Shown: positions 26,222 through 46,035, counted from the first letter of the stretch. The stretch is DNA of 47,792 nucleotides from a virus (IMGVR_UViG_3300030104_006315:1-47792), one strand, 5' to 3'. Numbers and translations: made by a program. The notes: generated by a model not told the origin, from the sequence alone.

Positions 26222-26250
26222 AATATACAAACAAATAACCATTAAGTCAA
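26222..26250 (-). promoter_or_regulatory. GCTTGACT-family promoter P1
   Basis: -35 TTGACT (26245-26250), spacer 17, -10 TATATT (26222-26227) on the minus strand. AATGCTTGACT begins within the stop of the Popeye-like gene. It drives 25853-26089 and possibly the genes down to the sigma factor. Confidence 0.8.
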
Positions 26251-26253
26251 GCA

Positions 26254-26907
26254 TTATTTTTGAGAACTTGAAACTAAATTGTTAGATACTTGTTCACTTA
26301 AAAGTGACTGTATTGTAAAATATAAAGAGGGATTTCGTTTCAACAAATCCTTAAAATCTTTTTGTGGCCAAACTAAACACTCTGTGTTATGTGCGACTTT
26401 ACAAGTAGCAGTAGCTGGTTTCTCTGTAAGAAAAGACATCTCTCCTACAAACTGACCATCTTTTAATTCAGCTACTTTGTTATCATTAACTAAAATATCA
26501 ACCATACCATTGTAAATTAAAATTAAATCATTTACAGGTTTACCTTGTTGAATAATTGGTAATGGTGATTTAAATTTTTTCCATTGTGCAATCTTAGTAA
26601 TCTTTAGAAACTCTACTGGTGATAAACCACGAAACATAGTTTCGTATAATTCTTTTTCTTTTGTTGACATCTTAACAGGTCTCTTCTCATAAATGATAAC
26701 TGCTATATGATAGATATTAACTAAAACAAATATGATGTTCCAATTTATTGCTAACCACATCGGTTCTACTGGTATGTAAAAATTATAAAGTACAGAGAAC
26801 AAACTAGCTAGTATAGATAGTATTCTAAGATACAGTATGTCCTTTACCAAAAAAGAAAAGGCAATAAGACCAAAGGCTAAGTGTCCAGCTAAAGTTGCTA
26901 TGTTCAT
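26254..26907 (-). CDS. Popeye-like membrane protein with cyclic-nucleotide-binding-type domain
   Basis: 217 residues. Three hydrophobic segments fill residues about 5-75 (AGHLAFGLIAFSFLVKDILY, LRILSILASLFSVLYNFY, INWNIIFVLVNIYHI). A cNMP-binding-type jelly roll spans about 95-205 (SPVEFLKITKIAQWK, IIQQGKPVNDLILIYNGMVD, GQFVGEMSFLTEKPATAT). This three-TM-plus-cNBD layout is that of Popeye-domain proteins. In the phosphate-binding cassette GEMSFLTEKPATAT the usual Arg is Ala, so canonical cAMP binding is doubtful. It is coupled (ATGA-type overlap) to the SLT enzyme gene. It may sense or regulate something at the inner membrane, perhaps lysis. That is inference. Confidence 0.65.
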   Translation of the reverse strand: MNIATLAGHLAFGLIAFSFLVKDILYLRILSILASLFSVLYNFYIPVEPMWLAINWNIIFVLVNIYHIAVIIYEKRPVKMSTKEKELYETMFRGLSPVEFLKITKIAQWKKFKSPLPIIQQGKPVNDLILIYNGMVDILVNDNKVAELKDGQFVGEMSFLTEKPATATCKVAHNTECLVWPQKDFKDLLKRNPSLYFTIQSLLSEQVSNNLVSSSQK

Positions 26908-27479
26908 TTTAGATTCTTTTGAACTCTCTTTACATAAAAGTTATTACTAATATAATTATTAGAATATTTTTTTGTTACTGTAGGACCATGACTATAGGCG
27001 GTAAGTGTTGATTCTAAATCATCGAAGTGTTCGTTAAGTTCAGCTAGATATTTTATGCCGACAGTAACATTTACATAAGGATCAAACAAATCTTGTTTTG
27101 GTGTTTGAAACTCGGACATGGCCGTTGATGGTAATATCTGCATTAAACCAATCGCTCCACTTGTGGAAACGGCTTTATGATTCCAATCGGATTCGGTTTG
27201 TATAACGGCTTTAACCATTTCATAATCAACCCCATACTCCCAACATAGAGCCTCTATATAGATAAGTATATGTTTGAGTTTAGATTTGTTCAAAGAAGAT
27301 TTTATCCCATCTGCTTGTAATTTATAGGCACTTGGAGTAAATGGCACATTAACCATACGAACAACTGTTTCAGTTTTTGTTTGTATTGGTGTATTAGGCT
27401 CAACTATTTCCATATAAGCCATAATAGACAAAGATGTGGTCAATACACCTAATAGGTAATATAGTTTATTTACTGACAT
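26904..27479 (-). CDS. membrane-anchored SLT-type lytic transglycosylase (probable endolysin or virion lysozyme)
   Basis: 191 residues. An N-terminal signal or signal-anchor helix (LYYLLGVLTTSLSIMAYM) is followed by an SLT domain at about 75-185: catalytic Glu96 in VIQTESDW, SGAIGLMQILPSTA, DPYVNVTVGIKYLAEL. The final motif, usually AYN-G-G, reads TAYSHGPTVTKKYS. The enzyme would cut the MurNAc-GlcNAc bond in peptidoglycan. The N-terminal anchor suggests Sec export without a classical holin (SAR-like). It overlaps the Popeye-like gene by 4 bases. A hairpin lies just upstream (27506-27571). Confidence 0.72.
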   Translation of the reverse strand: MSVNKLYYLLGVLTTSLSIMAYMEIVEPNTPIQTKTETVVRMVNVPFTPSAYKLQADGIKSSLNKSKLKHILIYIEALCWEYGVDYEMVKAVIQTESDWNHKAVSTSGAIGLMQILPSTAMSEFQTPKQDLFDPYVNVTVGIKYLAELNEHFDDLESTLTAYSHGPTVTKKYSNNYISNNFYVKRVQKNLK

Positions 27480-27505
27480 TGTATTTCCTTTCTTTATTAA
27501 TAAAT

Positions 27506-27571
27506 ATAAGGTGGCACTTCTTCTTTTAAGTCGTTGACTTGTTGAGGACTAAAGAATTAGTACCACCTTAT
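27506..27571 (-). promoter_or_regulatory. intercistronic hairpin
   Basis: ATAAGGTGG (27563-27571) pairs with CCACCTTAT (27506-27514), closing a 66-base element. An inner hairpin AAGTC-AAC-GACTT is possible. The 5' arm includes the stop of the zinc-ribbon gene. No T run follows, so it is more likely an RNA-processing or stabilising element than a terminator. Confidence 0.5.
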
Positions 27572-28122
27572 GAATTATTTTCTAATTTTTTGAAAAACTT
27601 TTTTTCTTTTGAGGTCATCATTTGTAATTTAGAAAGGTTATCAATCATTTTACCCTTCTGAATTAATGATATTTTGTCTTGTGAATATAACTCGTTTACT
27701 TTGTCTACTGCCCGTTGATAACCATATTCAATAAATTCTTTGACGATTGTTTGGTAAAGTGTTCTATTTTCCATATGAGAGAACTTTTGAAAATTTTTAC
27801 GAGAGATTTTTTTCTCTGTTGTCTTACTATATATATTGTCATAATAAGATTCTAACCACCTATCCCAACTATTGTCAGCATAAATGCCTTTAGCAGTTCG
27901 TCCACCATTAGCAGACCTTCGGTCTAATCTCTGAATATTTCTTTTAGTATCTTCTTGGACAGGTTGGACAATCGCACCTGTTTTGTGTGGATACACGACA
28001 TGAGCTGAATACTTTTGAGTATCAGAACATTCAAGACAAGTAAACAAACCGAGTTGAACTCTTTTGGAATCTAACTCGGATGAACATTTTCTACAAACTA
28101 TATTATCGGCTACTTTTAACAT
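27568..28122 (-). CDS. zinc-ribbon protein, unknown
   Basis: 184 residues from the ATG at 28122; an ATG at 28152 would add 10 residues and increase overlap with the upstream gene. Neither has a strong ribosome site. The N-terminus holds CRKCSSE and CLECSD, a two-knuckle zinc ribbon (CxxC...CxxC). The middle has RRSANGGRTAKGIYADNS, and the rest is basic and helical (KKISRKNFQKFSHMENRTLY). A nucleic-acid or polymerase partner role is plausible. Phage family unknown to me. Confidence 0.5.
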   Translation of the reverse strand: MLKVADNIVCRKCSSELDSKRVQLGLFTCLECSDTQKYSAHVVYPHKTGAIVQPVQEDTKRNIQRLDRRSANGGRTAKGIYADNSWDRWLESYYDNIYSKTTEKKISRKNFQKFSHMENRTLYQTIVKEFIEYGYQRAVDKVNELYSQDKISLIQKGKMIDNLSKLQMMTSKEKKFFKKLENNS

Positions 28123-28321
28123 TGTATAATGCGTCGTGGTCTTTTTTCTCATTTAAGATAACTTTTTCTATTTCATCTTTAAGATGATATAAAGTACATC
28201 TAGCACCATCAATGTAACTCTGTGAATCAGAGTTAGCATTGTAGTCTGGTAAAGTATTCATAGCGTCATCTAACTCACTTTCTATCTCACATAAATGTTC
28301 TAGTATCTTTTTATAATTCAT
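28103..28321 (-). CDS. 72-residue protein, unknown
   Basis: Acidic N-terminal helix (KKILEHLCEIESELDDAM), a middle SDSQSYIDGARCTLYHLKDE and a basic end. No domain recognised. It overlaps the zinc-ribbon gene start and has a typical ribosome site (AGGAG) 10 bases after the 94-residue gene. Confidence 0.45.
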   Translation of the reverse strand: MNYKKILEHLCEIESELDDAMNTLPDYNANSDSQSYIDGARCTLYHLKDEIEKVILNEKKDHDALYNVKSSR

Positions 28322-28330
28322 TTTTAACTC

Positions 28331-28615
28331 CTATGAGTGCCCTACAAACTCTGGTATATCTCTATCCAAATCAACTTCTGTATCAAAACCTGTGGTTTGT
28401 AAACCATCTACATAACTACCACACATCCTATCGGTCATATCATTTTCTAACCTAGCCATCAACCTCTTGTTACCTTCTGGACTCATCCAATTAGTCCTAT
28501 GGAACTTACCATTAACCCACATCTCAACCACCTTAATGGCGTTGGATAAAGAGCTAAAACAATATTCCACCTTAACATTGTCATTACCGACAACATATTC
28601 ATAAACATAAGTCAT
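28331..28615 (-). CDS. 94-residue protein, unknown
   Basis: Starts with VYEYVVGNDNVKVEYCFSSL, then KVVEMWVNGKFHRTNWMS and acidic residues. No recognisable domain. It directly follows (no gap) the 119-residue gene. It belongs to the P2 operon of small early-type genes. Confidence 0.45.
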   Translation of the reverse strand: MTYVYEYVVGNDNVKVEYCFSSLSNAIKVVEMWVNGKFHRTNWMSPEGNKRLMARLENDMTDRMCGSYVDGLQTTGFDTEVDLDRDIPEFVGHS

Positions 28616-28975
28616 TTATGCTTCTCCTTTTACTTTGTTAAAAAATTCATCCTTAGTGATACCAAGTCTACCATTGGTTTTCAAACCCCAAGTAAACTCA
28701 CTCTTTAATTTCTTGTTAGCCAATACATCAACAAAAAACTTATTGGTTGGATTCTCACATACAAAATCGTAGTTCTTTAAGAACCTATCAACAGCGTTCA
28801 TGTCACTACCTTTGGTGAAATACATCCTCTCATAAGGAAGATTACAAGTGCTCATAGTCAATTTGAAATTCTTGAAATACTTACTATACTCAACACTAAC
28901 ATGATGAATAGTACCACTCCTCTTATTTACCCAATAAGTGTAAGTACCTTCTTTTAGATGTTTTTTCAAATTCAT
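28616..28975 (-). CDS. 119-residue protein, unknown
   Basis: The reading frame is open further upstream, but promoter P2 (-10 at 29002-29007) would start transcription near 28995, and the ATG at 28975 has AAGGAA upstream, so this start is chosen. The sequence MNLKKHLKEGTYTYWVNK is followed by SGTIHHVSVEYSKYFKNFKL. Basic, no domain recognised. Confidence 0.55.
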   Translation of the reverse strand: MNLKKHLKEGTYTYWVNKRSGTIHHVSVEYSKYFKNFKLTMSTCNLPYERMYFTKGSDMNAVDRFLKNYDFVCENPTNKFFVDVLANKKLKSEFTWGLKTNGRLGITKDEFFNKVKGEA

Positions 28976-29001
28976 TATTTTATTCCTTTTTTTCACGATA
29001 A

Positions 29002-29030
29002 AATATACACAGAAAAACAATACAAGTCAA
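29002..29030 (-). promoter_or_regulatory. GCTTGACT-family promoter P2
   Basis: TTGACT (29025-29030), spacer 17, TATATT (29002-29007). The TGA stop of the SWIM gene (29027-29029) is inside TTGACT. It drives the 28616-28975 gene and those following. Confidence 0.82.
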
Positions 29031-29269
29031 GCATTATTTAAAACTTTTTTAAATAAATTTTTCTTGAATGTATTACTTATTTCTTTGATATGTCTACAAG
29101 ACTTTCTAAAGGCATATCCTTTACAACCACAACTATAGTGTTTGTGAAATGGATGCCATTCAACCCAATAGTGATTACCATTAGAACCATTGACACGCCA
29201 TTTGTTGTCTTCTACTATACTACCATCGAACTTGTCGATGATATAATCTATTAGTTGTTGTCCCATCAT
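29027..29269 (-). CDS. SWIM zinc-finger protein
   Basis: 80 residues. SWIM motif CxC...CxH is seen in HYSCGCKGYAFRKSCRHI, preceded by VEWHPFHK. SWIM fingers bind DNA or proteins. The protein is a minimal SWIM unit with a basic, helical end (NTFKKNLFKKVLNNA). Start overlaps the upstream stop (ATGA). Its last codons AAT GCT TGA are part of promoter P2. Confidence 0.68.
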   Translation of the reverse strand: MMGQQLIDYIIDKFDGSIVEDNKWRVNGSNGNHYWVEWHPFHKHYSCGCKGYAFRKSCRHIKEISNTFKKNLFKKVLNNA

Positions 29270-29643
29270 ACTAAGTAATTAGGACCTGTCCATCTATAGA
29301 ACTTACCACCGTCAAAAATATTTCCTCTAGCCCACTTTGCTGGAGCTCTCCAACCAGCAGCTTTGAAGACATCACCTTTTCTATGAGGTATTCCTTTGTG
29401 AGCTCCATCTTGATTAGCAATAAAACCCCACACCGAACTACCTTGTAAAACCTTAGTGTATTTCCTACCAACTTTGATATTAAGACTTTCGTTAAAGTCT
29501 TGAATAGACCTTAACTTAATGTCTTTGATATTCCCTTTTACAGCATCAGGATTAGTCCAATTATAATAATCATCTTTGATGCCTAACATTAGGTTATTGA
29601 CAGCATCCCAAAAATCTATGGTTGAATTTTTATTATATACCAT
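29266..29643 (-). CDS. 125-residue protein, unknown
   Basis: Contains KVGRKYTKVLQGSSVWGFIA, NQDGAHKGIPHRKGDVFKAA and WARGNIFDGGKFYRWTGPNY. Trp- and Gly-rich with a basic centre. I do not recognise a family. It is linked by overlaps to the 64-residue gene and to the SWIM gene, all three in the P3 operon. Confidence 0.5.
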   Translation of the reverse strand: MVYNKNSTIDFWDAVNNLMLGIKDDYYNWTNPDAVKGNIKDIKLRSIQDFNESLNIKVGRKYTKVLQGSSVWGFIANQDGAHKGIPHRKGDVFKAAGWRAPAKWARGNIFDGGKFYRWTGPNYLV

Positions 29644-29827
29644 AAGCCAACTCCGCTTTCATTTCTAAGTAATCTGTTTCGGCATCTTCCATACCGACAT
29701 GACTTATTGTTCCCATACCAGACTTACTAACTAATTTTATTGGTTTTGGTTTTTTACCGATGGCTTTATCCATCTCAACGAAGAACTCGTCCATGTCCTT
29801 TTTTATTTCCTTTAGAATCAAATTCAT
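29633..29827 (-). CDS. 64-residue protein, unknown
   Basis: Begins MNLILKEIKKDMDEFFVEMD and later has KPIKLVSKSGMGTISHVGME. No domain recognised. First gene after promoter P3. AGGAAATAAATA precedes the start. Confidence 0.5.
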   Translation of the reverse strand: MNLILKEIKKDMDEFFVEMDKAIGKKPKPIKLVSKSGMGTISHVGMEDAETDYLEMKAELAYGI

Positions 29828-29855
29828 TATTTATTTCCTTTTTCTTACACCTAAA

Positions 29856-29884
29856 GCTACTAATTAAATACTATATGAGTCAAG
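29856..29884 (-). promoter_or_regulatory. GCTTGACT-family promoter P3 (variant -10)
   Basis: TTGACT at 29879-29884 and, 17 bases on, GTAGCT in place of TATATT (29856-29861). From the -35 through GTAGCTTTAGGTG it is nearly identical to P9 (40088-40116), which shows that the unusual -10 region is conserved. The HNH gene stop (GCT TGA) lies inside TTGACT. Confidence 0.6.
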
Positions 29885-30344
29885 CATTATTTTTATTTTT
29901 TTCTCTATCTTTTTTGGTTTTTTCTTTATGACAAGGTTTACATAGAGTTTGCATATTATCTAACCAATAGTAAGACCAATCCAACTCCTTTTCGGTTTTA
30001 CCCTTTTGTTCCATCAATGGTTTGATGTGGTCTAAGTCCCACCCTCTTCGAGTACATTGTGTACCACAACTATTACACTTACCTCTATCTCGTAACCATA
30101 TGTGTTTTCTAGCTTCACCAGAATGATAGATAATCATGTATTGTGTAGCACACTTTTCATGCCAGGTCTTTCTCGTATTGTGAATTCCACTTTCTACAAT
30201 TTTTTCACCACACCATCGACATATGCCTTTTTCAGAAACATAATAAGAATCTGGTTTTGGTGGTTGTCTAAAGTTACCATCCCACTCTTCTTTTTTTCTA
30301 CCAAAGGTATGTTTGTGTCGTCTACCAAATCTACTTAATGGCAT
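29880..30344 (-). CDS. HNH endonuclease
   Basis: 154 residues. There are two zinc-knuckle pairs: CRWCGEK (about 42-48) and CNSCG (about 92-96). The HNH motif follows: WDLDHIKPL, then WLDNMQTLCKPCHKEKTKKD. It is a metal-dependent DNA nicking/cutting fold, probably a free-standing homing-type endonuclease or a DNA-packaging helper. It lies next to two tRNA genes, a common site for phage homing nucleases. The C-terminus is basic. Confidence 0.85.
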   Translation of the reverse strand: MPLSRFGRRHKHTFGRKKEEWDGNFRQPPKPDSYYVSEKGICRWCGEKIVESGIHNTRKTWHEKCATQYMIIYHSGEARKHIWLRDRGKCNSCGTQCTRRGWDLDHIKPLMEQKGKTEKELDWSYYWLDNMQTLCKPCHKEKTKKDREKNKNNA

Positions 30345-30356
30345 ATATTTTCCTTG

Positions 30357-30429
30357 AGTGGTGGGTGAGAATCGAACTCACAAATAATGGATTTGCAATC
30401 CACCCCCTTAACCATTCGGGCACCACCAC
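30357..30429 (-). tRNA. tRNA-Cys (GCA)
   Basis: 73 bases without CCA. The 7-bp acceptor (GTGGTGG / CCACCAC) and T-arm (GTGAG-TTCGATT-CTCAC) pair perfectly. Anticodon loop TTGCAAA gives anticodon GCA. The D-arm is short (CCC/GGG) and the loop contains GG. Confidence 0.9.
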
Positions 30430-30435
30430 ATATTG

Positions 30436-30508
30436 TGGAGCTGACAGGACTCGAACCTGCGACATCCTCCGTGCAAGGGAGGCGCTCTCCCAACTGAGCT
30501 ACAGCCCC
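30436..30508 (-). tRNA. tRNA-Ala (TGC)
   Basis: 73 bases without CCA. Acceptor GGGGCTG / CAGCTCC (one G-T pair), D-arm GCTCAGTTGGGAGAGC, anticodon loop CTTGCAC (anticodon TGC), T-arm CAGG-TTCGAGT-CCTG. It lies 6 bases from tRNA-Cys, likely a joint transcript. Confidence 0.93.
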
Positions 30509-30513
30509 ATTAA

Positions 30514-31023
30514 TTAAAAATCACCAGGCGCCACTTGAAAGGTGTTAAGACCTAAGTCTCTCCACATCTTGACAACTTTATCCCTATCATCCACGACAAG
30601 AAAGACATCATCGATATCGACAAAGGTATCTAACATCTTCTTCTTTAGGATTTCATCTGGCATAAATCTCATATCGAATGTGGCTGGATTACCATCGGCA
30701 ATCGGCCATGACTTATCTTTAAACTTATCTGGTCTCATAACCAAAAGGTCAAAGGGTACATCCCACCAAACCAACCAATCTACGGTCGCATCAAAACCTC
30801 TATCGTTTCTACCTGAAAAGATAACGATTTTGAATCCATCTTGATGGAACATCTGAGCCATCTTAATTACTGGTTCATTTGGCGTATCCCAATTCTTAAT
30901 AGAATTGGGAGCAGCAAAGATTTCCCAATCCAACTTACCATTGGGTTTCATAGACTTATCTCTCCTAACATCGATATTAGCAAGAGTTCCATCCAAATCA
31001 AATATAACTGTTTTCTTACTCAT
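30514..31023 (-). CDS. polynucleotide 3'-phosphatase-like HAD enzyme
   Basis: 169 residues, the size of the C-terminal phosphatase domain of T4 Pnk. HAD motif I is FDLDGTLA (about 8-15), motif II IFSGRND, motif IV VVDDRDKVVKMWRDLGL, and the end QVAPGDF is typical for the Pnk phosphatase domain. It removes 3' phosphates from nucleic acids. No kinase Walker A is present, so this is a stand-alone phosphatase. It is adjacent to the two tRNA genes, which may suggest tRNA repair, or general nucleic-acid repair. Confidence 0.8.
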   Translation of the reverse strand: MSKKTVIFDLDGTLANIDVRRDKSMKPNGKLDWEIFAAPNSIKNWDTPNEPVIKMAQMFHQDGFKIVIFSGRNDRGFDATVDWLVWWDVPFDLLVMRPDKFKDKSWPIADGNPATFDMRFMPDEILKKKMLDTFVDIDDVFLVVDDRDKVVKMWRDLGLNTFQVAPGDF

Positions 31024-31024
31024 T

Positions 31025-31216
31025 TTAACCCCACGCTACAAGGTTAAAGTCTACCCATTTAGTTTTACCATTGAGAAACTGAAGCTTGGTCTTGAGTTTT
31101 ACCCAAGTATCATTCTTCACTTTACCACCTTTTACATCAACGGCTTTTGCTTGAAAACCATTGAAGAAAACAACCTTGTCTTTCCAAAGTTTGTTTTTAA
31201 GTTGTTTAGATTTCAT
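31025..31216 (-). CDS. 63-residue basic protein, unknown
   Basis: MKSKQLKNKLWKDKVVFFNG, then FQAKAVDVKGGKVKNDTWVK, ending in NLVAWG. Beta-rich and basic. No family recognised. It is the first gene after promoter P4 and 1 base upstream of the phosphatase gene. Confidence 0.5.
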   Translation of the reverse strand: MKSKQLKNKLWKDKVVFFNGFQAKAVDVKGGKVKNDTWVKLKTKLQFLNGKTKWVDFNLVAWG

Positions 31217-31240
31217 TTTCTTTTCCTTTTCTTAGGTCTA

Positions 31241-31270
31241 AATATAATAAAGAAAATGTATATGTGTCAA
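31241..31270 (-). promoter_or_regulatory. GCTTGACA-type promoter P4
   Basis: TTGACA (31265-31270), spacer 18 to TATATT (31241-31246), or 17 to TTATAT. The stop (GCT TGA, 31267-31269) of the 42-residue ORF lies in the -35. Drives 31025-31216, the phosphatase and possibly the tRNAs. Confidence 0.8.
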
Positions 31271-31926: not shown

Positions 31927-31947
31927 ATTGTCTCCTATGTTGTTTTT

Positions 31948-32167: not shown

Positions 32168-32421
32168 TATCTACTACTCCTATATGCAATTATATCTTCT
32201 ATCTCATGTTCTTTACCCTTAACATCTTTAAATGTTGTTGGTAGCTCTTCATACTTATATGTTGGAAACTTACCATGTGCTGTCATACTACCAGGTAATC
32301 TATATGGTGGACAATCACTTAAATCACATTCGTTCCATTGAAACCAATCGTCTGAACCTTTAATCTGAATCATAGGTTTTGACTCATTAAATAAATATCT
32401 TTGTCGTAATGTTATCTTCAT
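32167..32421 (-). CDS. 84-residue protein, unknown
   Basis: Start at ATG 32421 chosen because it overlaps the upstream stop (ATGA); a longer in-frame extension would run far into the upstream gene. MKITLRQRYLFNESKPMIQI is followed by KGSDDWFQWNECDLSDCPPY and acidic residues. No domain recognised. Two Cys (C, C seven residues apart) are seen. Confidence 0.5.
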   Translation of the reverse strand: MKITLRQRYLFNESKPMIQIKGSDDWFQWNECDLSDCPPYRLPGSMTAHGKFPTYKYEELPTTFKDVKGKEHEIEDIIAYRSSR

Positions 32422-32738
32422 TTGACTTGCATCTTTTGTAAACTCTGTGGCACATTCTGTTGTATGTAATGTTGTATTACAAATGCTTCTGCTATATGAG
32501 AGAAGAACCAAAAGAATGTAAGTATCGGAACATATATTCTAAAGTCTAATCCCATCACAGAAATTCCTAACCAAGTAAAGAATATCATACCCATTGACTT
32601 AGTTAGAAAACTTATACCAGTAAATCCTAATGACATAACACTACCTCTAGCAACCACAACATACACACCTAAAGCTAGATGTATTAAGTTAAGAAAAGAA
32701 GGTGCTATAACTCCCATTAAAAAATATTCTGCTATCAT
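32418..32738 (-). CDS. four-span membrane protein, unknown
   Basis: 106 residues, nearly all hydrophobic, with segments at about 5-28, 35-50, 52-68 and 72-90 (FLNLIHLALGVYVVVARGSV, FLTKSMGMIFFTWLGISVMG, YVPILTFFWFFSHIAEAFVI). A KMQVK-type tail ends it. No family recognised. First gene of the P5 operon, followed by a ladder of very small genes. Confidence 0.5.
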   Translation of the reverse strand: MIAEYFLMGVIAPSFLNLIHLALGVYVVVARGSVMSLGFTGISFLTKSMGMIFFTWLGISVMGLDFRIYVPILTFFWFFSHIAEAFVIQHYIQQNVPQSLQKMQVK

Positions 32739-33867: not shown

Positions 33868-35055
33868 TTAGAAAGGATTCACTTGGTCGACATCGTTGTC
33901 CTCTATGTCGTGGTCGGTGAAGAGTTCTTCGTCACTACCATCAGACACGAACTTCTGTACTATCTGTTTGACAAAGGTTCTCTCACTATCCACACCACCA
34001 GTAGCGTCATACTGAGGGTAGATGGTGATGTCAGCAGCTTCCATTAGATTGAAGCCGTCAAACAGTAACCCAGCAATCTCTACTGAGGTTCTTGTTGACA
34101 CACCACTCGTTATACGAGGGTTATCTGTCGCAGCCTCAGTACGAGTCAAATGGGTAATGGACGATATATTTTTTAGTTCACTTTCATCCACAGTAGGAAA
34201 CATATACTTGAGTAAACCGAGCTCTTCTTCATCGTTCAATAAGTCCATCTCGATAACGGTGAATCTATCCATTAGGGCTTTATCTAACTGTCTAGTAGCC
34301 GTGTATTCATTACCTATATTAGCGGTCGCAATAAAAGTAACTCCATCAGCCACTTTAATAGTGTCTTGACCATCAGACTCGTCTAACCTTAAGTATCTCT
34401 GACCATAGTCGAGAACAGTCATCAAGATATTCCAAGCGTCAGGATGAGCCCTTGTTAACTCGTCAAGCAATATCACGGCATTAGGTGTTTGAATAGCCTT
34501 AACGAATAACGACTCTGAGAAGTAAGTTCCTTTACCTTTGTCGAAATGAACATTACCGATAAGAGAAGCTCTCGGGTCTTGTGTCGCACCCAAGTTAAAG
34601 TAAAAGTCAGGCCTATCGAGGGCATTGACCAATGACTTAGCCGCCATAGTTTTACCACAACCGGCTTGACCAGTCATCATTATATTCTTACCTCTAACGG
34701 CTGACCTAATAAGGTACTTCCATTTCAGCTCTTTCATGACCAAACCAGTCGGTTTTAGTCCATATGAGTTAGAAATGAAGTCAACGATTTCATCGTGACC
34801 ATCTGGTATCTCTACATCGGATGGGGCATCAGGTACATGGGATACTGCACCAAAGTTCTCCATCGGTACTTTCCACCAATAGATACGACCACCTTTACCC
34901 TCTCGACATTCTAATGCCATACCGGCATTATACGCACCTTTCCTCGTGCCAGTCCTAATGAACGAGGTTAATTTATTTCCATCACTATCCCAAGCATTAA
35001 ATCGATTACCCGATTTAACCACTTGAACGACAGTTCCGATAGTTGGTTTATTCAT
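33868..35055 (-). CDS. cobS-like: MoxR/CobS-like AAA+ ATPase
   Basis: 395 residues. Residues about 1-90 are a basic N-terminal domain. The AAA+ core follows: Walker A GQAGCGKT (about 128-135), Walker B VILLDEL (about 193-199), sensor ATANIGNEY, and arginine-finger region LDKALMDRF. Phage proteins of this kind are often called CobS and act as chaperone-like motors with VWA partners. The VWA/CobT-like partner is encoded at 38077-40059. Pairing by family is well known, but the target of the phage pair is not. P6 lies upstream; a structured RNA lies downstream. Confidence 0.82.
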   Translation of the reverse strand: MNKPTIGTVVQVVKSGNRFNAWDSDGNKLTSFIRTGTRKGAYNAGMALECREGKGGRIYWWKVPMENFGAVSHVPDAPSDVEIPDGHDEIVDFISNSYGLKPTGLVMKELKWKYLIRSAVRGKNIMMTGQAGCGKTMAAKSLVNALDRPDFYFNLGATQDPRASLIGNVHFDKGKGTYFSESLFVKAIQTPNAVILLDELTRAHPDAWNILMTVLDYGQRYLRLDESDGQDTIKVADGVTFIATANIGNEYTATRQLDKALMDRFTVIEMDLLNDEEELGLLKYMFPTVDESELKNISSITHLTRTEAATDNPRITSGVSTRTSVEIAGLLFDGFNLMEAADITIYPQYDATGGVDSERTFVKQIVQKFVSDGSDEELFTDHDIEDNDVDQVNPF

Positions 35056-35116: not shown

Positions 35117-35393
35117 GCATTTTCTTCAATTATTTTTGGGACGCCAGAAGTATTTCTACTAGCAGTGACTCTTAATCCTAGTCCCTAATTGTAGTGTGGT
35201 GGGGACTTGAACCCCACAGCCGTACCGAGTGTGCTACTCATCGAGATACTCAGGCAATCACTCCCTTTTTCTCTTCGACTCCACTAGGCTAGATAGGTGA
35301 TTAATCCATCCAATACCCTTCACACCAACCTCTTTGGGAAGGTGGGGACTCGAACCCCACGAAAGCACCCTTATCATCCCTCAAGGATACCTA
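35117..35393 (-). ncRNA. candidate non-coding RNA with two tRNA T-arm-like hairpins
   Basis: No protein gene fits. A transcript from P7 would carry GTGGGG-TTCGAGT-CCCCAC (35342-35360) and GTGGGG-TTCAAGT-CCCCAC (35199-35217): 19 bases each, one difference, with the TTCRA loop of tRNA T-arms. No complete cloverleaf could be built around either: the acceptor partners do not match. Other possible stems: GAGT/ACTC near 35235-35250, and a GGGAC/GTCCC closure (35139-35186) around AGTA-GAAA-TACT. It may be decayed tRNA genes or a tRNA-mimicking RNA. Confidence 0.45.
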
Positions 35394-38075: not shown

Positions 38076-38076
38076 A

Positions 38077-40059
38077 TTATTTCTGAAGGAACTTTTGATT
38101 CATTGTTTTTGCAACATTCATCATGTTAGTACAATCGATGAAACTCGCATCCTTACCATACATTTTCTTGAAAGTATTTTCGTCATTCTCACTTCTGTAA
38201 CCCTCAGAGATAAAGTAACTCATGATTTTGATTCCATTATTCTTCATCATTTTTACCATTCTTCTAGCGTGGTCAATGGCTCTATCACCAGCATAATAAA
38301 CATCGTGACCAGTATATCTTCTACCAGTAGAGAACCAAGGAGCCCCATCTGAATAGTTGATGAAGTAGTTATCCTCACCATTTGCACCTTGTAACCACTT
38401 CTTCATGATGGCTTCGTAACATAGTGACTCAGGAGTAACTCCACCAGGTTGAAGAGCCTTCCAAAGAGTTTTGATTTTTGATAACTTATCTTTCTTACTA
38501 TTGTAAACAATCACTACAACCGGCTTATCTTTGTTAGTCCACCTAACATCAACAGTAACATGAATATTTCCAGCCATGTCAGCAGCTTTTGCCATCGCAA
38601 CAGCAGACTTAATGGCTTTCTCAAACTTTCCACCACTCATAGAACCACTCCCATCAATCGACAAGTGTAAGTTAGCTTTGTTGTATCTTTCTTTCTGAAT
38701 CTGTGAAAAGACATTCTCATTACCAAAACCCAACTCCGAGATTAATCTCTTGTTGATTTTACCTGTGTTTTGTCTTGTGAAAATCAAGTCTTTCTCTTCA
38801 CCACGAATCTTAAGTTTTCTACCTAGAATCGCACCAAGTCTGAAACCCTCATTGATGGCCTCAACCATTTTTGAACCACCACTCCAATAATACTCATCAT
38901 AGTATTTGTCATCAAGAGAACGAAAGAAAGGAAAGGCACCACTTTCAATAAGTTCTTTAGTAAGTGATGGAATCACAACAGTTCCAACTTTACCAATTCT
39001 ACCATCTCCAACCTCGACCAACTCTGTATTTGAGTTTGATAGGGCATTGACAATCTCTGAATCTTTCTTTGTCAAAGTAGACTTTGGAGTTTGACCATCT
39101 AAGAACTCTTTTTGTTTATCAAACATATTCTGAATTTGTTTTTGTTGTTGAGGAGATAACTCTTCACCATTTGACTCAGTAGGATTTCCATCATTAGGAG
39201 TCATCTGAGCATCGCCAGTATCAACCTCAGTTCCATTACTACTAGAACCACCCTCAGACTCTTGATTTTCCCCATTCTCGGTGTTTTCGTTGTTACCCTC
39301 ACCATTACCATCTTCAGGTTGTTGGACACTATCTACAATCTTAAAGACAATCTCACAAACAGACTTTGCCAACTGAATGGCGTCATCAGTAGACTTTAGT
39401 CTTGAGATGTTTTTCATATTAATTATTCTGTAAATGTCACTAAGTCTTGGAAGAGCCGTAAAATCAGTAGCCTCATTAGTGAAGTTGACAATTCTAAACA
39501 TATAAGAATCTAAGTCTAACTCACGATACATCTGTGAATTAAGACCTTTCGCAACTTTCTTACCATTGAAATACTTGTTGTAAAGACTATGGTAGTAACC
39601 CTTGTAACCAGGCGAACCTCTGAAAACGATGTTATCGACTCGTCTATCCTCAATGTAGTTGATTATCCCACGAAAGAACTCCATCTTGTGGTGGGTTAAT
39701 TCAAACTCTCTAATTTTGTAAGTGTTACGAGCATCAGCAAAAGCATTGAAATCAGAGTAGGCTATGTGACTACCTTCATGAAGAGCCAGACCAACTACAT
39801 GGTCAAAGTTCTTCTCATTGATATTCGCACCGATAGTAACAGATTTACCATCAGTAAAAGAATCACCACGAGAGGGGAACTTGACAGGAATGTTTTGACC
39901 ACTTACGATACGAACAAAGTTACCGATTGCCCTTTTGTGACCGGCAAGAGCAATATGGTCTTTACCTTTTTTTACTGGTTTGTCATCGATATCAGACAAC
40001 AAGTCATCAATCAGACTTGTCCTACGATTGTCAAACCAAAAATCTGAATATTTACTCAC
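38077..40059 (-). CDS. cobT-like: VWA-domain protein, CobT-like
   Basis: 660 residues. The N-terminal part has an HEGSHIAYSD zinc-peptidase-like motif (about 94-103). The middle (about 255-305) is an acidic Gly/Asn/Glu-rich linker. The C-terminal VWA domain starts around 460 with MIDAS DGSGSMSGG; a downstream YSDGAPW supplies another acidic residue. CobT/VWA proteins act with MoxR/CobS AAA+ ATPases, and the partner is encoded at 33868-35055. In this phage pair the two genes are separated by about 3 kb of small genes. Target unknown. Confidence 0.8.
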   Translation of the reverse strand: MSKYSDFWFDNRRTSLIDDLLSDIDDKPVKKGKDHIALAGHKRAIGNFVRIVSGQNIPVKFPSRGDSFTDGKSVTIGANINEKNFDHVVGLALHEGSHIAYSDFNAFADARNTYKIREFELTHHKMEFFRGIINYIEDRRVDNIVFRGSPGYKGYYHSLYNKYFNGKKVAKGLNSQMYRELDLDSYMFRIVNFTNEATDFTALPRLSDIYRIINMKNISRLKSTDDAIQLAKSVCEIVFKIVDSVQQPEDGNGEGNNENTENGENQESEGGSSSNGTEVDTGDAQMTPNDGNPTESNGEELSPQQQKQIQNMFDKQKEFLDGQTPKSTLTKKDSEIVNALSNSNTELVEVGDGRIGKVGTVVIPSLTKELIESGAFPFFRSLDDKYYDEYYWSGGSKMVEAINEGFRLGAILGRKLKIRGEEKDLIFTRQNTGKINKRLISELGFGNENVFSQIQKERYNKANLHLSIDGSGSMSGGKFEKAIKSAVAMAKAADMAGNIHVTVDVRWTNKDKPVVVIVYNSKKDKLSKIKTLWKALQPGGVTPESLCYEAIMKKWLQGANGEDNYFINYSDGAPWFSTGRRYTGHDVYYAGDRAIDHARRMVKMMKNNGIKIMSYFISEGYRSENDENTFKKMYGKDASFIDCTNMMNVAKTMNQKFLQK

Positions 40060-40116: not shown

Positions 40117-40140
40117 GCATTATTTTCACTTTTTTTAAAA

Positions 40141-40563
40141 TTATGGTAAAACCCTTTTATTAAATTGTTTGAATAGTTGGTTAGCATACTTAGCCTGTTT
40201 AGGTGTTAACTTACCTTTGGCATGAACTCGTTTAGTTATACTGTCCAAGAACTCCATTTTCTCATATTCATACTGACGAGTATATCCACATTTCGTTAAT
40301 AAATATTTAAGTTTAGTTATCTTGGATAACATCGCTTCTCTTTTCCTCTTTATATCAGGATCACCATAAGTTCGGTAGGTTGCTGCTGCGGTTTGGATGG
40401 AATCCAACATCTTTGGTGTTATTTTAAAATCACTAACTAACTTTCTGTGCATTTCAGATAAAAACTGATGATAACCGGTTGGTAAGGTTCTCGTGTACTC
40501 ATTATCATTTAACAAGTCTCTGAGGTCTTTTATTTCTCTTTTATATCTCTCTTTGTTCGTCAT
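40141..40563 (-). CDS. 140-residue basic helical protein, unknown
   Basis: NKERYKREIKDLRDLLNDNE, then IQTAAATYRTYGDPDIKRKR and a C-terminus LTPKQAKYANQLFKQFNKRV. Highly basic helices suggest nucleic-acid binding. Preceded by P10. No domain recognised. Confidence 0.5.
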   Translation of the reverse strand: MTNKERYKREIKDLRDLLNDNEYTRTLPTGYHQFLSEMHRKLVSDFKITPKMLDSIQTAAATYRTYGDPDIKRKREAMLSKITKLKYLLTKCGYTRQYEYEKMEFLDSITKRVHAKGKLTPKQAKYANQLFKQFNKRVLP

Positions 40564-40571
40564 ATATCTAA

Positions 40572-41085: not shown

Positions 41086-41348
41086 ACCTTCTCAATAACC
41101 AAACCTACAAAACCTACTCCGATGATACCTCTCCACTTTTGTGAATTTTCTCTAAACCTTGTATTCTCTTTTGTTTCAGCCCATAATCCTTCGTGTGGAT
41201 TAAATAGGTTTTCTTTTATAAAACTTAATGATTCATCTGTTTTTTGGTGAGCTTTTTCCATGTCGTTTTTTAAATCAACAAGGTCTTGTCGCATGTCGTC
41301 CAATTTAAGATGTGCTATCTCTAACTGTTTTCTGTCGTGTTGGTTCAT
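41067..41348 (-). CDS. coiled-coil protein with C-terminal membrane anchor
   Basis: 93 residues. Coiled coil at about 5-55 (LKLDDMRQDLVDLKNDMEKA) and a C-terminal hydrophobic helix (WRGIIGVGFVGLVIEKVW). This is the layout of XhlA-like proteins of phage lysis modules, and also of many unrelated small proteins. No ribosome site is strong. Lies between the methyltransferase gene and the 162-residue gene. Confidence 0.5.
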   Translation of the reverse strand: MNQHDRKQLEIAHLKLDDMRQDLVDLKNDMEKAHQKTDESLSFIKENLFNPHEGLWAETKENTRFRENSQKWRGIIGVGFVGLVIEKVWSIFT

Positions 41349-41406
41349 AACTATAAATATACCTTTATTTTGACTTCGTTATATTTTCTCACATGGAATA
41401 TACAAG

Positions 41407-42633
41407 TTATTTCTTTTCCCATATCCAAATTGGTTCACAAAATCTCTTGTCTTTGTTCTTCTCTACCATCTCTAAGGTTTTCTCTTTAAACTGAGTATTA
41501 TCCTTGGCAGTTCCAGCTCCACCAGAGTTTGGTCGTTTTGCCATCTCCATTCCAATACAACCTATGTATTCCATATCTCTGTATTCATCAAGAAACTCAT
41601 TCATCGGGTCACATATCTTTAGGTATTGTGCACCACCTTTGGTTTTTGCATTTACATCTGATATATTGACACATAACTTACCACCAGATTTTAATGTTGG
41701 TAACATATTGTCAAGAGATTTCTGAAGAAACTGATAGTTCCAACTATCTATGTCTTTGTATCTAACCCAACTTTGATTATCATCTTCACCATATCTTTCT
41801 ATATTGAAATAAGGTGGTGATGTAAATATAATATCAAAGGTATCATGATATTCATTAAAGTTGAAATCTTCAGCCGCGGCAAGATGAAACTTAGTCTTCT
41901 TTTTATTTTCAAAGAATGTCAAATGATTATCGTAATATCTGGCTTGTCTTTCGTAAATAGGATGATTCTCTTTACGAGGATCTACACCAACATACAATTC
42001 GGTATTCATACTGGCATAGAATCCAGCCAACCTATCACCCCAACCCATTGAAAAATCCAATACATTTTTTACATTGAAATAATCATACATAGCTTTTGCC
42101 ACATTTGGTTTGAACTGAGAACAAATGTATTTACGAAGTCCAATCATAGTCCTTAATATAGACCTATCTATCTTGGTTAATTTCAATGAATAAGCAGCAC
42201 CCATCAAACTCTTCATAAAATCAAATGTTTCCCAAGTCCTTTTGGGTCCTGGATAGGAACTTGATTCAACCGACCATCTGTTTTCTTGTTGGAAATAATT
42301 ACTGGCTTTATTACCTATGTTATTTCTCGCGAAGTACCATTGTGAACCTCTGTAATCTAAAGGATAATCATAACCCTCTTCACTTCTAGCAAACCACTCA
42401 CCTTCTCTCAAAATGTCATGAACCCAAGTTCCTTTCAACTTGTTGAAGTCTTTACGACAATCTTCTTCGGTCATCTCCATAGTTGGCATTGGATAAGTCA
42501 TAGCGACAGTTGCCAGAGATTCCTTTACATCATCTTTGTCGAATGTATCCTTTATGTAAGTCCATTCTTTTTCATCGATGTGAAGATATGGTTCTTGGTT
42601 TTTAAACTTATCAAAGTAATCAAGATACACCAT
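41407..42633 (-). CDS. DNA methyltransferase (TSPPY type)
   Basis: 408 residues. SAM-binding motif I-like NVLDFSMGWGDRLAGFY (about 188-204) and catalytic TSPPYFNIERYGED (about 268-281) are the features of amino-methyltransferases. TSPPY is frequent in N4-cytosine methyltransferases, so m4C or m6A is possible. The N-terminal 180 residues are an additional domain (WVHDILREGEWFARSEEGYD). Target-recognition region is not identifiable. It follows the UV endonuclease gene (14-base overlap) and lies near the glycosyltransferases. It may protect phage DNA. Confidence 0.8.
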   Translation of the reverse strand: MVYLDYFDKFKNQEPYLHIDEKEWTYIKDTFDKDDVKESLATVAMTYPMPTMEMTEEDCRKDFNKLKGTWVHDILREGEWFARSEEGYDYPLDYRGSQWYFARNNIGNKASNYFQQENRWSVESSSYPGPKRTWETFDFMKSLMGAAYSLKLTKIDRSILRTMIGLRKYICSQFKPNVAKAMYDYFNVKNVLDFSMGWGDRLAGFYASMNTELYVGVDPRKENHPIYERQARYYDNHLTFFENKKKTKFHLAAAEDFNFNEYHDTFDIIFTSPPYFNIERYGEDDNQSWVRYKDIDSWNYQFLQKSLDNMLPTLKSGGKLCVNISDVNAKTKGGAQYLKICDPMNEFLDEYRDMEYIGCIGMEMAKRPNSGGAGTAKDNTQFKEKTLEMVEKNKDKRFCEPIWIWEKK

Positions 42634-43564
42634 GTAACTCCATATATTTTTTTACGGCAAGTTCTTTGTGTTTAGCCTCTACCATGATATCAACATCATT
42701 ACCATAAGTATCAATATAATCGTAGACATAATCAGAATGGGCTTGAGGTCTAATTGACTCGTCAAGTCGTTCCTTACTGCGACTCTCGCTATAATGGACG
42801 ACTGGTGTAATACCTTTCGGCCAAGTTGATATAGCCAACTCCAAAGCTTCTTTCTCTGTGAGTCCACCATCGCAAAATCTGTGGTGATGATAATCGAATA
42901 CAATAGGAATACCGATATGTTTATATACTCCATAATACAAGTCCTTTACTGAATACATTGATGCTTTGTCATCGTTCTCTACAGTCAAACGAGTCTTAAC
43001 TGAATCTGGTAATCTGTGAAAGTTCTCACAGAATCTTTTCATAGAACTTTCTTTATCACCATAAGCTCCACCGATGTGTATGTTGATTTTGTTGTATGGT
43101 GTTCTACTGAGATTCATCATATCAAATGTATCACCATGCATCGTCAAGTCACCAACACAATTTTCAACGACATGTTCATGTGGTGATGTCAATACATTGA
43201 AAGGACCTGGATGACAGGTTATCCTAACACCATGTGTCTCTACCTTTATGCCAGCAGAGCGTAGATAAATTTTCATTTTATCCAAATCTTTTAAATCTTC
43301 CCATTCGTATTCAGACTTCCAAGGTGCAAGTCCACTTGTAATACGAAAAAACTTGTAACCATTAAGTATGTTCCAATCAATAATCTTATCTAAATCCATA
43401 CAATTTTTAAGTGCGACTTCACTCGCATAATCAACACCTTTACTTTCAAAGGTTCTTTTAATCATACTACGACCTGTTGTGATTGGTTTTACTCCCTTTT
43501 CTTTACCACCCCACTTTTGTGGATATGATAATTGCATGTTGATACACGCATAACCTATGTTCAT
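42620..43564 (-). CDS. uvdE: UV damage endonuclease (UVDE/UvsE)
   Basis: 314 residues, normal size. Diagnostic motifs are MNIGYACIN at the N-terminus, NGYKFFRITSGLAPWKSEYE, HPGPFNVLTSP, NKINIHIGGAYGDKESSMKR, LTVENDDK, GIPIVFDYHHH and VVHYSES. TIM-barrel metallo-enzyme that incises 5' to UV photoproducts, important in sunlit surface water. Start overlaps the MazG-like stop (ATGA). Confidence 0.92.
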   Translation of the reverse strand: MNIGYACINMQLSYPQKWGGKEKGVKPITTGRSMIKRTFESKGVDYASEVALKNCMDLDKIIDWNILNGYKFFRITSGLAPWKSEYEWEDLKDLDKMKIYLRSAGIKVETHGVRITCHPGPFNVLTSPHEHVVENCVGDLTMHGDTFDMMNLSRTPYNKINIHIGGAYGDKESSMKRFCENFHRLPDSVKTRLTVENDDKASMYSVKDLYYGVYKHIGIPIVFDYHHHRFCDGGLTEKEALELAISTWPKGITPVVHYSESRSKERLDESIRPQAHSDYVYDYIDTYGNDVDIMVEAKHKELAVKKYMELHGVS

Positions 43565-43818
43565 AATAAGTTACTCCATTTTTTTAGTTTTTTAAGTTTT
43601 ATTTTTTTTCGTTCATCTAAATCTTGTTGGTTCAACAAACCTTGTTCCATCATCAAATCTATCATTAATAAAACATCACCAGCTTCCTCTATTAATCTAG
43701 GATGATTTTTATAGTCCTCGCATCTAATAGCTTTAGAACAAGCCTCTATCAATTCACCACATTCTTCCATCGTAATAACCATCAGTTCTGTATTGTAATC
43801 TAGTTTTTTATTTATCAA
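43561..43818 (-). CDS. mazG-like: MazG-like nucleotide pyrophosphohydrolase
   Basis: 85 residues, a short MazG form. TTG start (GGAGGAGA upstream). Motif EECGELIEACSK (ExxxE) and LIEEAGDVLLMIDLM (ExxD) are the metal-binding pair. Family members hydrolyse NTPs or alarmones. Phage MazG is thought to change nucleotide pools of the starving host. First gene after P11. Confidence 0.85.
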   Translation of the reverse strand: MINKKLDYNTELMVITMEECGELIEACSKAIRCEDYKNHPRLIEEAGDVLLMIDLMMEQGLLNQQDLDERKKIKLKKLKKWSNLL

Positions 43819-43887
43819 TACTCTGGTCTCCTCCCAAAATCATTCTTTTGTATTCTTCTTTTTAGGTGTTTTTTATATTGATATAAT

Positions 43888-43916
43888 AATATATAGTTTT
43901 TTATTGACTTAATCAA
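43888..43916 (-). promoter_or_regulatory. GCTTGATT-type promoter P11
   Basis: AAAAGCTTGATT with TTGATT at 43911-43916, spacer 17, TATATT (43888-43893). The HD-gene stop lies 5 bases before. Drives mazG, uvdE and probably the methyltransferase. Confidence 0.75.
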
Positions 43917-43920
43917 GCTT

Positions 43921-44664
43921 TTAATCACCGAATAGCTCCTTAAATGCTTGATTAGCAGCTTTTGATTGTTCTGATTTCTTCTTTACCTCTTCTTCTTTCT
44001 CTACTTTGATATCGTGGTCACCTCTTGCCCATTCATCGTTTTCAATCTTACTCGCCATCATATCAGCCTGATGTAATATATAAGGTATGTTTGTTTTAAG
44101 TTGTCGGTCTTTAGAATAACTTATATAATAACTTTTATTAGCTTCTTCATACAGACCATCGGTTAGTCTTAATCCAAGATACTCATTTTCTGTCATCTGA
44201 ATACCGAAGTGTTGTAACAACCAAATAGCTCTATCTGTTACCGTCATGAATTGTAACTTACCATTGTGTTTGTAAATCAACCCTTGATTTTTTCTATGCC
44301 AGTCTGAATCGTTTGGTGTGTAGTAATCCTCTGATAAATCACCAACTTTACCTAAGTCGTGATGAAGAGCAGCAAAGATAAGTTCCTCTTTGTCAAAGTC
44401 ATCAATGGTCGCACCATTTCTACCCCAAAGGTCATATATTTGAACGACTAAATCAGTAATATGTAAAACATGTTCCACATACCCACCGGCGTGAGCATTG
44501 TGAAAGTGTTCTTTTCCACTTGCTGGTGCCAACATCATCCTTTCTTCAAAGTAATCATACATCTCTAACAACCCCTCCAGCCTTTCGCCGGAGAAGTTGT
44601 CGTTGATTATTTGTATGAGTTTATCCCAATTCTCTTGGATTTGTTCAGGTGTTAGTTCTTTCAT
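43921..44664 (-). CDS. HD-domain phosphohydrolase
   Basis: 247 residues. His/Asp pattern NAHAGGYVEHVLHITDLVVQ, FAALHHDLGKVGDLSEDYYT (HD in ALHHDLGK), and later YILHQADMMASKIENDEWAR with another Asp. This is the HD superfamily of metal-dependent phosphohydrolases on nucleotides or RNA. The C-terminus is a charged Lys/Glu stretch and a short tail (KAANQAFKELFG). Located 9 bases after the ParB-like gene. Confidence 0.78.
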   Translation of the reverse strand: MKELTPEQIQENWDKLIQIINDNFSGERLEGLLEMYDYFEERMMLAPASGKEHFHNAHAGGYVEHVLHITDLVVQIYDLWGRNGATIDDFDKEELIFAALHHDLGKVGDLSEDYYTPNDSDWHRKNQGLIYKHNGKLQFMTVTDRAIWLLQHFGIQMTENEYLGLRLTDGLYEEANKSYYISYSKDRQLKTNIPYILHQADMMASKIENDEWARGDHDIKVEKEEEVKKKSEQSKAANQAFKELFGD

Positions 44665-44673
44665 TCTTTACTC

Positions 44674-45909
44674 CTAAAATGTTAGTGGGTGTGGTGTTAC
44701 GATATACCCATTGTTATTGTCATTTGGTTTTAACTCACCTGTAAATGTGGTTAACTTTGAAACAGCTTCCAAGTTTATCTTTGTACCAAACCTACTTGTC
44801 TTTCCAAAATCAAGTTCATCTACTTTACCATAAGACACATAGAAATAATCAAACTCAGGAGTATAACCTACAAACAAGAAATAACCTGTCTTAGGATGAC
44901 GACTGATAAACTCAACCTTATTCCCATTCTTGATTTGACATGTCTTTATCTCAATACCAGCATTATGTAATGGAAAAGATATGTCATAGATTCCATTGTC
45001 TTTAGGATCGTAAGCGACAGCCTTATTAGACTCAGATGAACGACTATTGATAGAATCTGTTACAGCGTTAGCAAACAACTCATGCACAAGACCACCAACG
45101 ATATTCTGTTGGATGTTTCTGAAACCGTATTTAGTCTCTCCTTCAGTATCAGTAAAAGTAGCATCACGAAACATGGTCATCAGATTACTGACTCTATTAA
45201 TTGAATAAATAACATGACTATTGTCTATCGCATTTTCTAATATCTTAGAAGTGTGCATGTACTGAGCATTCTTCTTGTTCTTAGAATCATCAGATTTAGC
45301 AAAACTCACAGCTTTAGCGATGGATAAATTGTTACCACCATCAGAAAATATTCTAGCGACTAAATCAGGTCTATCATATCCTTTGGGAGTGTCATATGTT
45401 TTATCAGTTAGCAGCTTCAAGTTTTTATAACTATATTTGTAACTCAACTGAGCAGCAGAGCAGATTTGTTTAACAATATGTTCTGGACATGAACCATCAT
45501 TTTCATTTCTATACTCTTCAATTGCCGTCTGAACACTATTCCATTGTCTTTCAAGATTAGATGGTCTACCCATATTGGCTGTCATCAGTCTCATTATGTT
45601 TTGAAATTTGTTCTTTGGTTTCTTGGTTTGACTCCAAATAATTGGAGTCTCCGTATAACCTAACTCTTTAATAGCCGCAATCCGAGTGTGGCCTGACTTA
45701 ATCTCAAGAGTTTTTGGATATACTATTGGTGGCTCTATGAGTCCATCTTCTTCGATTTGTCTTTGCAAATCCTTGAAGTAGTCTTCATCCGCACCCCCAT
45801 ATATTTCAATATTGTCCTCATCTGGATTGAGGTCATGAATATTAACTATATCATCATATCTCTCTGTGCCTTCTGTGATGATATCTTTTACTTTTTTACT
45901 TTTCGACAT
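44674..45909 (-). CDS. ParB-domain protein with possible C-terminal nuclease fold
   Basis: 411 residues. Residues about 25-105 are a ParB/Srx-type domain (KDLQRQIEEDGLIEPPIVYP, KTLEIKSGHTRIAAIKELGY). Residues about 105-270 are helical (NKFQNIMRLMTANMGRPSNL). The C-terminal ~100 residues contain NGIYDISFPLHNAGIEIKTC, followed by GYFLFVGYTPEFDYFYVSYG, which may be a PD-(D/E)xK nuclease core (D, ExK in IEIKT). ParB domains occur as CTPases and as partners of phage DNA-modification genes. A structured leader and P12 precede it. Confidence 0.58.
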   Translation of the reverse strand: MSKSKKVKDIITEGTERYDDIVNIHDLNPDEDNIEIYGGADEDYFKDLQRQIEEDGLIEPPIVYPKTLEIKSGHTRIAAIKELGYTETPIIWSQTKKPKNKFQNIMRLMTANMGRPSNLERQWNSVQTAIEEYRNENDGSCPEHIVKQICSAAQLSYKYSYKNLKLLTDKTYDTPKGYDRPDLVARIFSDGGNNLSIAKAVSFAKSDDSKNKKNAQYMHTSKILENAIDNSHVIYSINRVSNLMTMFRDATFTDTEGETKYGFRNIQQNIVGGLVHELFANAVTDSINSRSSESNKAVAYDPKDNGIYDISFPLHNAGIEIKTCQIKNGNKVEFISRHPKTGYFLFVGYTPEFDYFYVSYGKVDELDFGKTSRFGTKINLEAVSKLTTFTGELKPNDNNNGYIVTPHPLTF

Positions 45910-45941
45910 TATTTCGTCTCCTAGTTATGTTTATTATCTAC

Positions 45942-45986
45942 GGTGTCTCTTGGGTAGTCTCTTAAATGACTACGATAGGCGACACC
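45942..45986 (-). promoter_or_regulatory. nested hairpin in the ParB-like leader
   Basis: GGTGTC / GACACC (45981-45986, 45942-45947) encloses TAGTC / GACTA (45968-45972, 45955-45959). It lies in the 5' UTR between P12 and the start at 45909, just upstream of the ribosome site AGGAGA. Likely regulatory or protective. Confidence 0.5.
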
Positions 45987-46006
45987 TTACTTTAACCTAT
46001 TTCTAT

Positions 46007-46035
46007 AATATACGGTAAAATACCATACATGTCAA
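46007..46035 (-). promoter_or_regulatory. TTGACA-type promoter P12
   Basis: TTGACA (46030-46035), spacer 17, TATATT (46007-46012). The glycosyltransferase stop is 8 bases upstream. It drives the ParB-like and HD genes. Confidence 0.8.

Follow-up and report, generated by a model that had tools for sequence, protein, structure and literature searches.

Probable early promoters with a conserved CTTGAC -35 element in the non-virion part of an uncultured T4-like virus contig

The virus contig IMGVR_UViG_3300030104_006315:1-47792 carries along one strand a dozen sequences resembling bacterial promoters, which a first-pass annotation (as P1 to P12) had grouped into one family with an extended -35 element, confined to the non-structural half of the DNA. 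Which polymerase reads these sequences, and at what stage of infection? The window analyzed here spans the entire 47.8-kb record, which is probably an incomplete piece of a genome. With a probability of roughly 0.82, we favor the reading that a lytic Far-T4-type myovirus of the T4 superfamily uses P1-P10 and P12 as early promoters, which work like those of T4 and are read by the main sigma factor of the host.

All twelve sequences can be read directly on the minus strand where they had been placed, with a spacer of 17 or 18 bases at every one and TATATT in 8 of 12. The exact -35 sequence GCTTGACT is present at eight sites, the remainder carrying near variants, and has a single copy elsewhere in the window, on the plus strand at 47224. 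We scanned the whole window with a matrix trained on 365 sites from contigs of relatives, which had been gathered via UvdE, the AAA ATPase and gp6; contigs with any 25-mer in common with the window were left out, and training used intergenic TTGAC-N-TAnnnT sequences from the AAA set and the nearer UvdE relatives. Exactly 11 sites scored at least 8 bits, against 0.68 expected (60 simulated windows, maximum 3): P1-P10 and P12. Each of them lies on the minus strand at a coordinate above 25.3 kb, outside the virion operon. Ten of them scored 25.7-36.3 bits and P8 11.9, the next best score in the window being 6.8. The family therefore keeps eleven of its proposed members and loses P11 (43911, TTGATT), which stayed below 6 bits and is probably a chance match. 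That the whole set consists of such matches, selected visually from AT-rich sequence, is a reading to which we give practically no weight: TTGACA or TTGACT followed by an AT-rich -10 often arises by chance when mismatches are allowed and both strands are considered, but the independent matrix, the strand bias, the intergenic placement and the conservation across many contigs refute it for 11 of the 12 sites.

The family had also been described as missing from 3.8-24 kb, where the late operon was placed, and building the motif and scanning the complete genome and relatives with it had been proposed as the check. The scans found no early-type sites in the late region. None of the 11 sites lies there (binomial p = 2.5e-4), and early-type sites are likewise absent from the structural segments, with limits set by hand from gene matches, of three 120-130 kb relatives (0/48; 0/59 with the window). 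In contrast, the ATATTTATA box upstream of genes has 14 of its 35 copies in structural segments and the rest elsewhere (Fisher p = 1.3e-7 against the early-type sites). As with early promoters of the T4 type, the sites thus stand at non-virion genes and are absent from late operons.

The element conserved in the relatives is larger than first described. In an unbiased hexamer search of 159 relative loci, CTTGAC stood far ahead of all other hexamers at the -35 distance before TAnnTT, with 432 of 547 intergenic copies so placed (base rate 2.2%, z ~120) and a handful in the reversed control. The base before TTGAC is C at 233 of 238 sites with a -10 at 17-18 bp, compared with 61 of 239 without a -10, and the base before CTTGAC is G in 105 and A in 81 of the 238. 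Conservation does extend upstream of TTGAC, as the first-pass annotation had proposed, but of its conserved "GC" the C holds and the G is optional. Further upstream come A-tracts with maxima at -3..-9, -13..-19 and -23..-29 from this C (317 sites in relatives); their period of ~10 bp is what UP elements or curved DNA would show, and A/T-rich, UP-like sequence thus precedes the -35 as in T4 early promoters. The spacer has a preferred start, and a weaker discriminator preference, TAGGTAT, lies downstream of the -10. The hexamers are of sigma70 type, with a spacing inside the 16-19 bp range usual for such promoters, and lie before genes on the coding strand. An extended -10 (TGn) is not apparent: G directly precedes the -10 in 66% of sites, without a conserved TG dinucleotide properly placed.

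The bases around the -35 invite two other readings. In the first, TGCTTGA would be a MotA-like box of middle promoters, which a phage activator binds and a sigma70 -10 follows; the wwTGCTTgA of the window is close to the MotA box of T4, (a/t)(a/t)(a/t)TGCTTtA, for which ACTT is tolerated as well (PMC2988021). The MotA box, however, lies 12 +/- 1 bp from the -10 (PMC2988021), whereas its equivalent in the window is 19-20 bp away and TTGAC sits at the canonical 17-18 bp. Among the relatives, neither T nor G before CTTGAC is strongly conserved, and the C after TTGA, which falls outside the MotA box, is. We rejected MotA-type middle promoters because of the wrong spacing, and consider this reading very improbable.

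In the second, the promoters would be read by RpoH/sigma32, the heat-shock sigma factor of the host, which likewise has a -35 starting with CTTGA. The sigma32 -10 is of the CCCAT type and is found at 0 of the 12 sites, the -10 here being TATATT or TAGCTT; a stress sigma factor would also be an unlikely dependency for immediate early expression of a phage. Although promoters predicted for sigma70 and for RpoH coincide to a large extent in Sinorhizobium meliloti (PMC3616915), we regard this possibility as extremely unlikely.

The upstream extension had been ascribed to a phage-specific or a host-sigma-specific contact, and the comparison favors the latter. CTTGAC belongs to the sigma70 consensus of the alphaproteobacterium S. 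meliloti, CTTGAC-N17-CTATAT (PMC2573895), and also occurs in distant T4-like phages, as GCTTGAC in the SAR11 phages HTVC008M and Mosig and as GCCTTGAC in the OM43 phage Melnitz (CTTGAC share 11/12 in HTVC008M and 17/20 in Melnitz), which speaks against a phage-specific contact. The Flavobacterium phage vB_FspM_immuto (immuto) has no CTTGAC within 26.7 kb of upstream DNA; its -35 is AGTTGC (19/25), and its -10/discriminator, TATATTTAGGTATC, matches the promoter family of the window. Another set of relatives has TTTGG at the -35. Shine-Dalgarno use, a second signal that depends on the host, covaries with the -35 type (median 0.47 for CTTGAC-type and 0.12 for TTTGG-type loci, which are related and so not independent), and its occurrence in 49% of the open reading frames (ORFs) of the window, against 1% in immuto, argues against a Bacteroidota host. 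The promoters also differ from the Bacteroidota pattern (TTTG / TAnnTTTG, no Shine-Dalgarno) in having CTTGAC at the -35 and TAnnTTTG at 0 of 12 -10 regions. One clade of UvdE relatives (L138-L167) has [TC]TTGG at the -35, placed 19 bp from TAnnTT, and makes little use of Shine-Dalgarno sequences, a combination that suggests Bacteroidota-like hosts for that clade.

A second box, TATTTATA, looks like a lineage-specific late promoter. It is the reverse complement of T4's TATAAATA and precedes genes, on their coding strand, in the Far-T4 lineage, namely in the window, the relatives G001, G003 and G006, immuto and Microcystis phage Mel-JY01, with TATTTAAA in Rhodothermus phage RM378; HTVC008M, Mosig and Melnitz (Cyano-T4) have TATAAATA instead. 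Immuto carries the box 18-33 nt ahead of where its sheath, tube, terminase, portal and tail-spike genes begin, and none was found before the capsid, protease or gp6 genes. The T4 late box TATAAATA was rejected as a candidate in the window, where it shows no enrichment upstream of genes. An early-type promoter precedes the gp55-like late sigma gene in four genomes (the window, G001, G003 and G006), which fits a T4-like cascade with host polymerase making the late sigma factor early. A literature search found no description of this pattern of late box and -35 across these phages, which is not proof of novelty.

The presence of a gp55-like sigma gene in the window also bears on whether the CTTGAC promoters are read by a sigma factor specific to the phage, or by a polymerase that the phage has modified, instead of unmodified host RNA polymerase. 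Such a reader would suit the conservation that runs into the discriminator (TATATTTAGGTAT) and is common with immuto despite a different -35. The -35/-10 layout, however, is canonical sigma70, CTTGAC is common to distant T4-like phages of other hosts, and TATTTATA, a box that follows lineage, is the more plausible partner of the gp55-like factor; we judge a phage-specific reader improbable.

Under the favored reading of host-read early promoters, unmodified host RNA polymerase with the main (RpoD/sigma70-type) sigma factor would bind these strong UP/-35/-10 promoters upon infection. The phased A-tracts upstream of the -35 would attract the alpha C-terminal domains, sigma region 4 would read CTTGAC(T/A), and sigma region 2 would read TATATT or TAGCTT 17-18 bases on. 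The resulting transcripts would cover genes for host takeover and DNA metabolism, small RNAs and the operon with the gp55-like late sigma, and the gp55-like factor would then direct polymerase to TATTTATA at the virion genes, where early promoters would consequently be unneeded.

Several points weigh against this scheme. The window being a fragment, "early" rests on gene content, together with the analogy to T4 (PMC2988021). Some relatives have neither promoter type. The window family has its TAGGTAT discriminator in common with the Flavobacterium phage; one portion of the promoter thus goes with phage lineage, and a phage factor could read it. On the host side, two SAR11 chromosome samples of 200 kb each gave no CTTGAC promoter signal and six SAR11 genomes lack the perfect consensus, although promoters on the chromosome may just be weak. 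Viruses of this group were also missing from 297 SAR11-family genomes, searched without a positive control. CTTGAC itself fails to separate alphaproteobacteria from others, OM43 being non-alphaproteobacterial. A SAR11 host inferred from CTTGAC was accordingly rejected and is unconfirmed, given that Melnitz carries the motif and the SAR11 chromosomes lack both signal and perfect consensus. Host searches with the relatives' gp6 found nothing either in genome contigs or in these SAR11-family genomes, and both are uninformative without a positive control.

The window probably belongs to a divergent, uncultured marine T4-like myovirus of Far-T4-like character. The nearest isolates are Mel-JY01 and the Flavobacterium phages immuto (gp6 ~30-34%, gp55-like protein ~40-42%); immuto ranks first among isolates by the gp55-like protein (~42% identical) and is one of the nearest by gp6 and capsid. 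The gp6 of the longer relative G001 is 55% identical to that of the window, which has no capsid gene, and the G001 capsid points to the Far-T4 branch, being ~50% identical to those of Mel-JY01 and immuto and 38% to that of RM378. The gp55-like protein gave nothing significant against Pfam and PDB; its gene lies at the upstream end of the virion operon. With ORFs called mechanically throughout, the non-virion part encodes UvdE, an AAA ATPase, a methyltransferase, ParB-like and DNA-glycosyltransferase-like proteins, a PNKP-type phosphatase and many small ORFs. A phage gene at 26254-26907 (minus strand) has a cyclic-nucleotide-binding/Popeye-like domain match (PF04831, PF00027) and is also present in G001 and G003. 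At gathering score, Rfam recognized only two tRNAs in the window, tRNA-Cys(GCA) and tRNA-Ala(TGC) at 30356-30508 (minus strand), and a nucleotide search of the window against isolated phages matched the tRNA region only, the Ala tRNA region being the sole likeness.

The individual sites and the features around them are listed in Table 1. The proposal that the promoters divide the region into short operons agrees with P2, P3, P4, P5, P6 and P9, whose predicted 5' leaders have a sensible length of 18-26 nt, and not with P7 and P8, which are followed by non-coding DNA. For ORF 28616-29020, the true start is probably the internal ATG that the predicted start of P2 precedes. The non-coding stretch after P7 (35119-35387, minus strand) contains hairpins resembling tRNA T-arms at 35201-35215 and 35344-35358. 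Of these two, the downstream hairpin, together with its surrounding segment, is kept before the AAA gene in four relative loci (L171-L174), and this segment matched no recognized tRNA, tmRNA or Rfam family. In the P1 leader (26090-26215, minus strand), a GC-rich hairpin, GGGGCATAG...CTATGCCCC, stands ahead of the first ORF and is possibly an attenuator or small-RNA terminator. The TAGCTT variant of P3 and P9 is the -10 of most early-type promoters in G003 (L096, L215).

Table 1. Promoter sites, candidate late boxes and landmark genes of the window
Feature	Position	Strand	Sequence	Bits	Context
P1	26222..26252	-	GCTTGACT-N17-TATATT	29.8	before two small ORFs, then gp55-like late-sigma gene
P2	29002..29032	-	GCTTGACT-N17-TATATT	26.5	predicted start 20 nt before ATG with AAAGGA
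P3	29854..29885	-	GCTTGACT-N18-TAGCTT	34.4	predicted start 20 nt before ORF 29633-29827
P4	31241..31272	-	GCTTGACA-N18-TATATT	25.7	predicted start 18 nt before ORF 31025-31216
P5	32768..32799	-	ACTTGACA-N18-TATATT	33.0	predicted start 23 nt before ORF 32418-32738
P6	35088..35118	-	GCTTGACT-N17-TAAGTT	32.6	predicted start 26 nt before AAA ATPase gene 33868-35055
P7	35394..35425	-	GCTTGACT-N18-TATATT	36.3	top score in window; then ~270 nt non-coding DNA
P8	35516..35546	-	GCTTGACT-N17-TATATT	11.9	weaker member; non-coding DNA follows
P9	40087..40118	-	GCTTGACT-N18-TAGCTT	33.1	predicted start 21 nt before GTG of ORF 38077-40059
P10	40571..40602	-	GCTTGACT-N18-TAAATT	26.8	predicted start at or adjoining ATG of ORF 40141-40563
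P11	43888..43918	-	GCTTGATT-N17-TATATT	<6	membership unsupported
P12	46007..46037	-	ACTTGACA-N17-TATATT	30.5	91 nt before ParB-like gene 44674-45909
Virion operon	253..25311	-			gp6 and gp25 baseplate proteins; no CTTGAC promoters
gp6 baseplate wedge gene	19394-21307	-			in virion operon
gp25 gene	21324-21857	-			in virion operon
gp55-like late sigma factor gene	24339..25067	-			phrog_234, E 7e-8; downstream of P1
Candidate late box	24315..24322	-	TATTTATA		11 nt before ORF 23913-24311; conserved in relatives
Candidate late box	6435..6442	-	TATTTATA		upstream of ORF 5734-6402
Candidate late box	3821..3828	-	TATTTATA		upstream of ORF 3517-3807

The variation between phages is such that the -35 seems tuned to the host sigma factor, and the -10/discriminator (TATATTTAGGTAT) and late box seem inherited in the phage lineage, which suggests that early promoters carry host information and late promoters lineage information. 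We tentatively propose, as a possibility somewhat short of even odds, that Far-T4 promoters are modular, with a host-sigma-exchanged -35 (CTTGAC, TTTGG or AGTTGC), a lineage-conserved -10/discriminator and TATTTATA read by a divergent gp55. If so, the -35 could indicate to which phylum the hosts of uncultured marine T4-like viruses belong; confirmation would aid host assignment of uncultured phages and raise the question of how gp55-type sigma factors changed specificity. The sites also provide a tested map of probable early transcription starts and an annotation motif for this abundant uncultured marine T4-like group.

Among known systems, T4 early promoters have the arrangement UP/-35/TGn/-10 and outcompete host promoters (PMC2988021). 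The window resembles T4 in its several strong sigma70-type promoters with UP-like upstream sequence among non-virion genes, in conservation past the core elements and in a gp55-type late sigma, and differs in its -35 (CTTGAC(T/A)), its -10 (TATATT or TAGCTT, without a strong TGn extension), its three helically phased A-tracts and its TAGGTAT discriminator. The S. meliloti sigma70 consensus has the same extended -35 and a similar -10, but it describes chromosomal promoters of a soil alphaproteobacterium and, CTTGAC being present in an OM43 phage, is no evidence for an alphaproteobacterial host. HTVC008M, Mosig and Melnitz share (G)CTTGAC or GCCTTGAC at the -35 with 17-18 bp spacing, yet belong to the Cyano-T4 branch with TATAAATA late boxes, and the -10 of HTVC008M is mostly TGATATAAT, without TAGGTAT. 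Conversely, immuto differs at the -35 (AGTTGC rather than CTTGAC) and in genes that lack Shine-Dalgarno sequences, but has the same TATATTTAGGTAT -10/discriminator and the same TATTTATA late box as the window.

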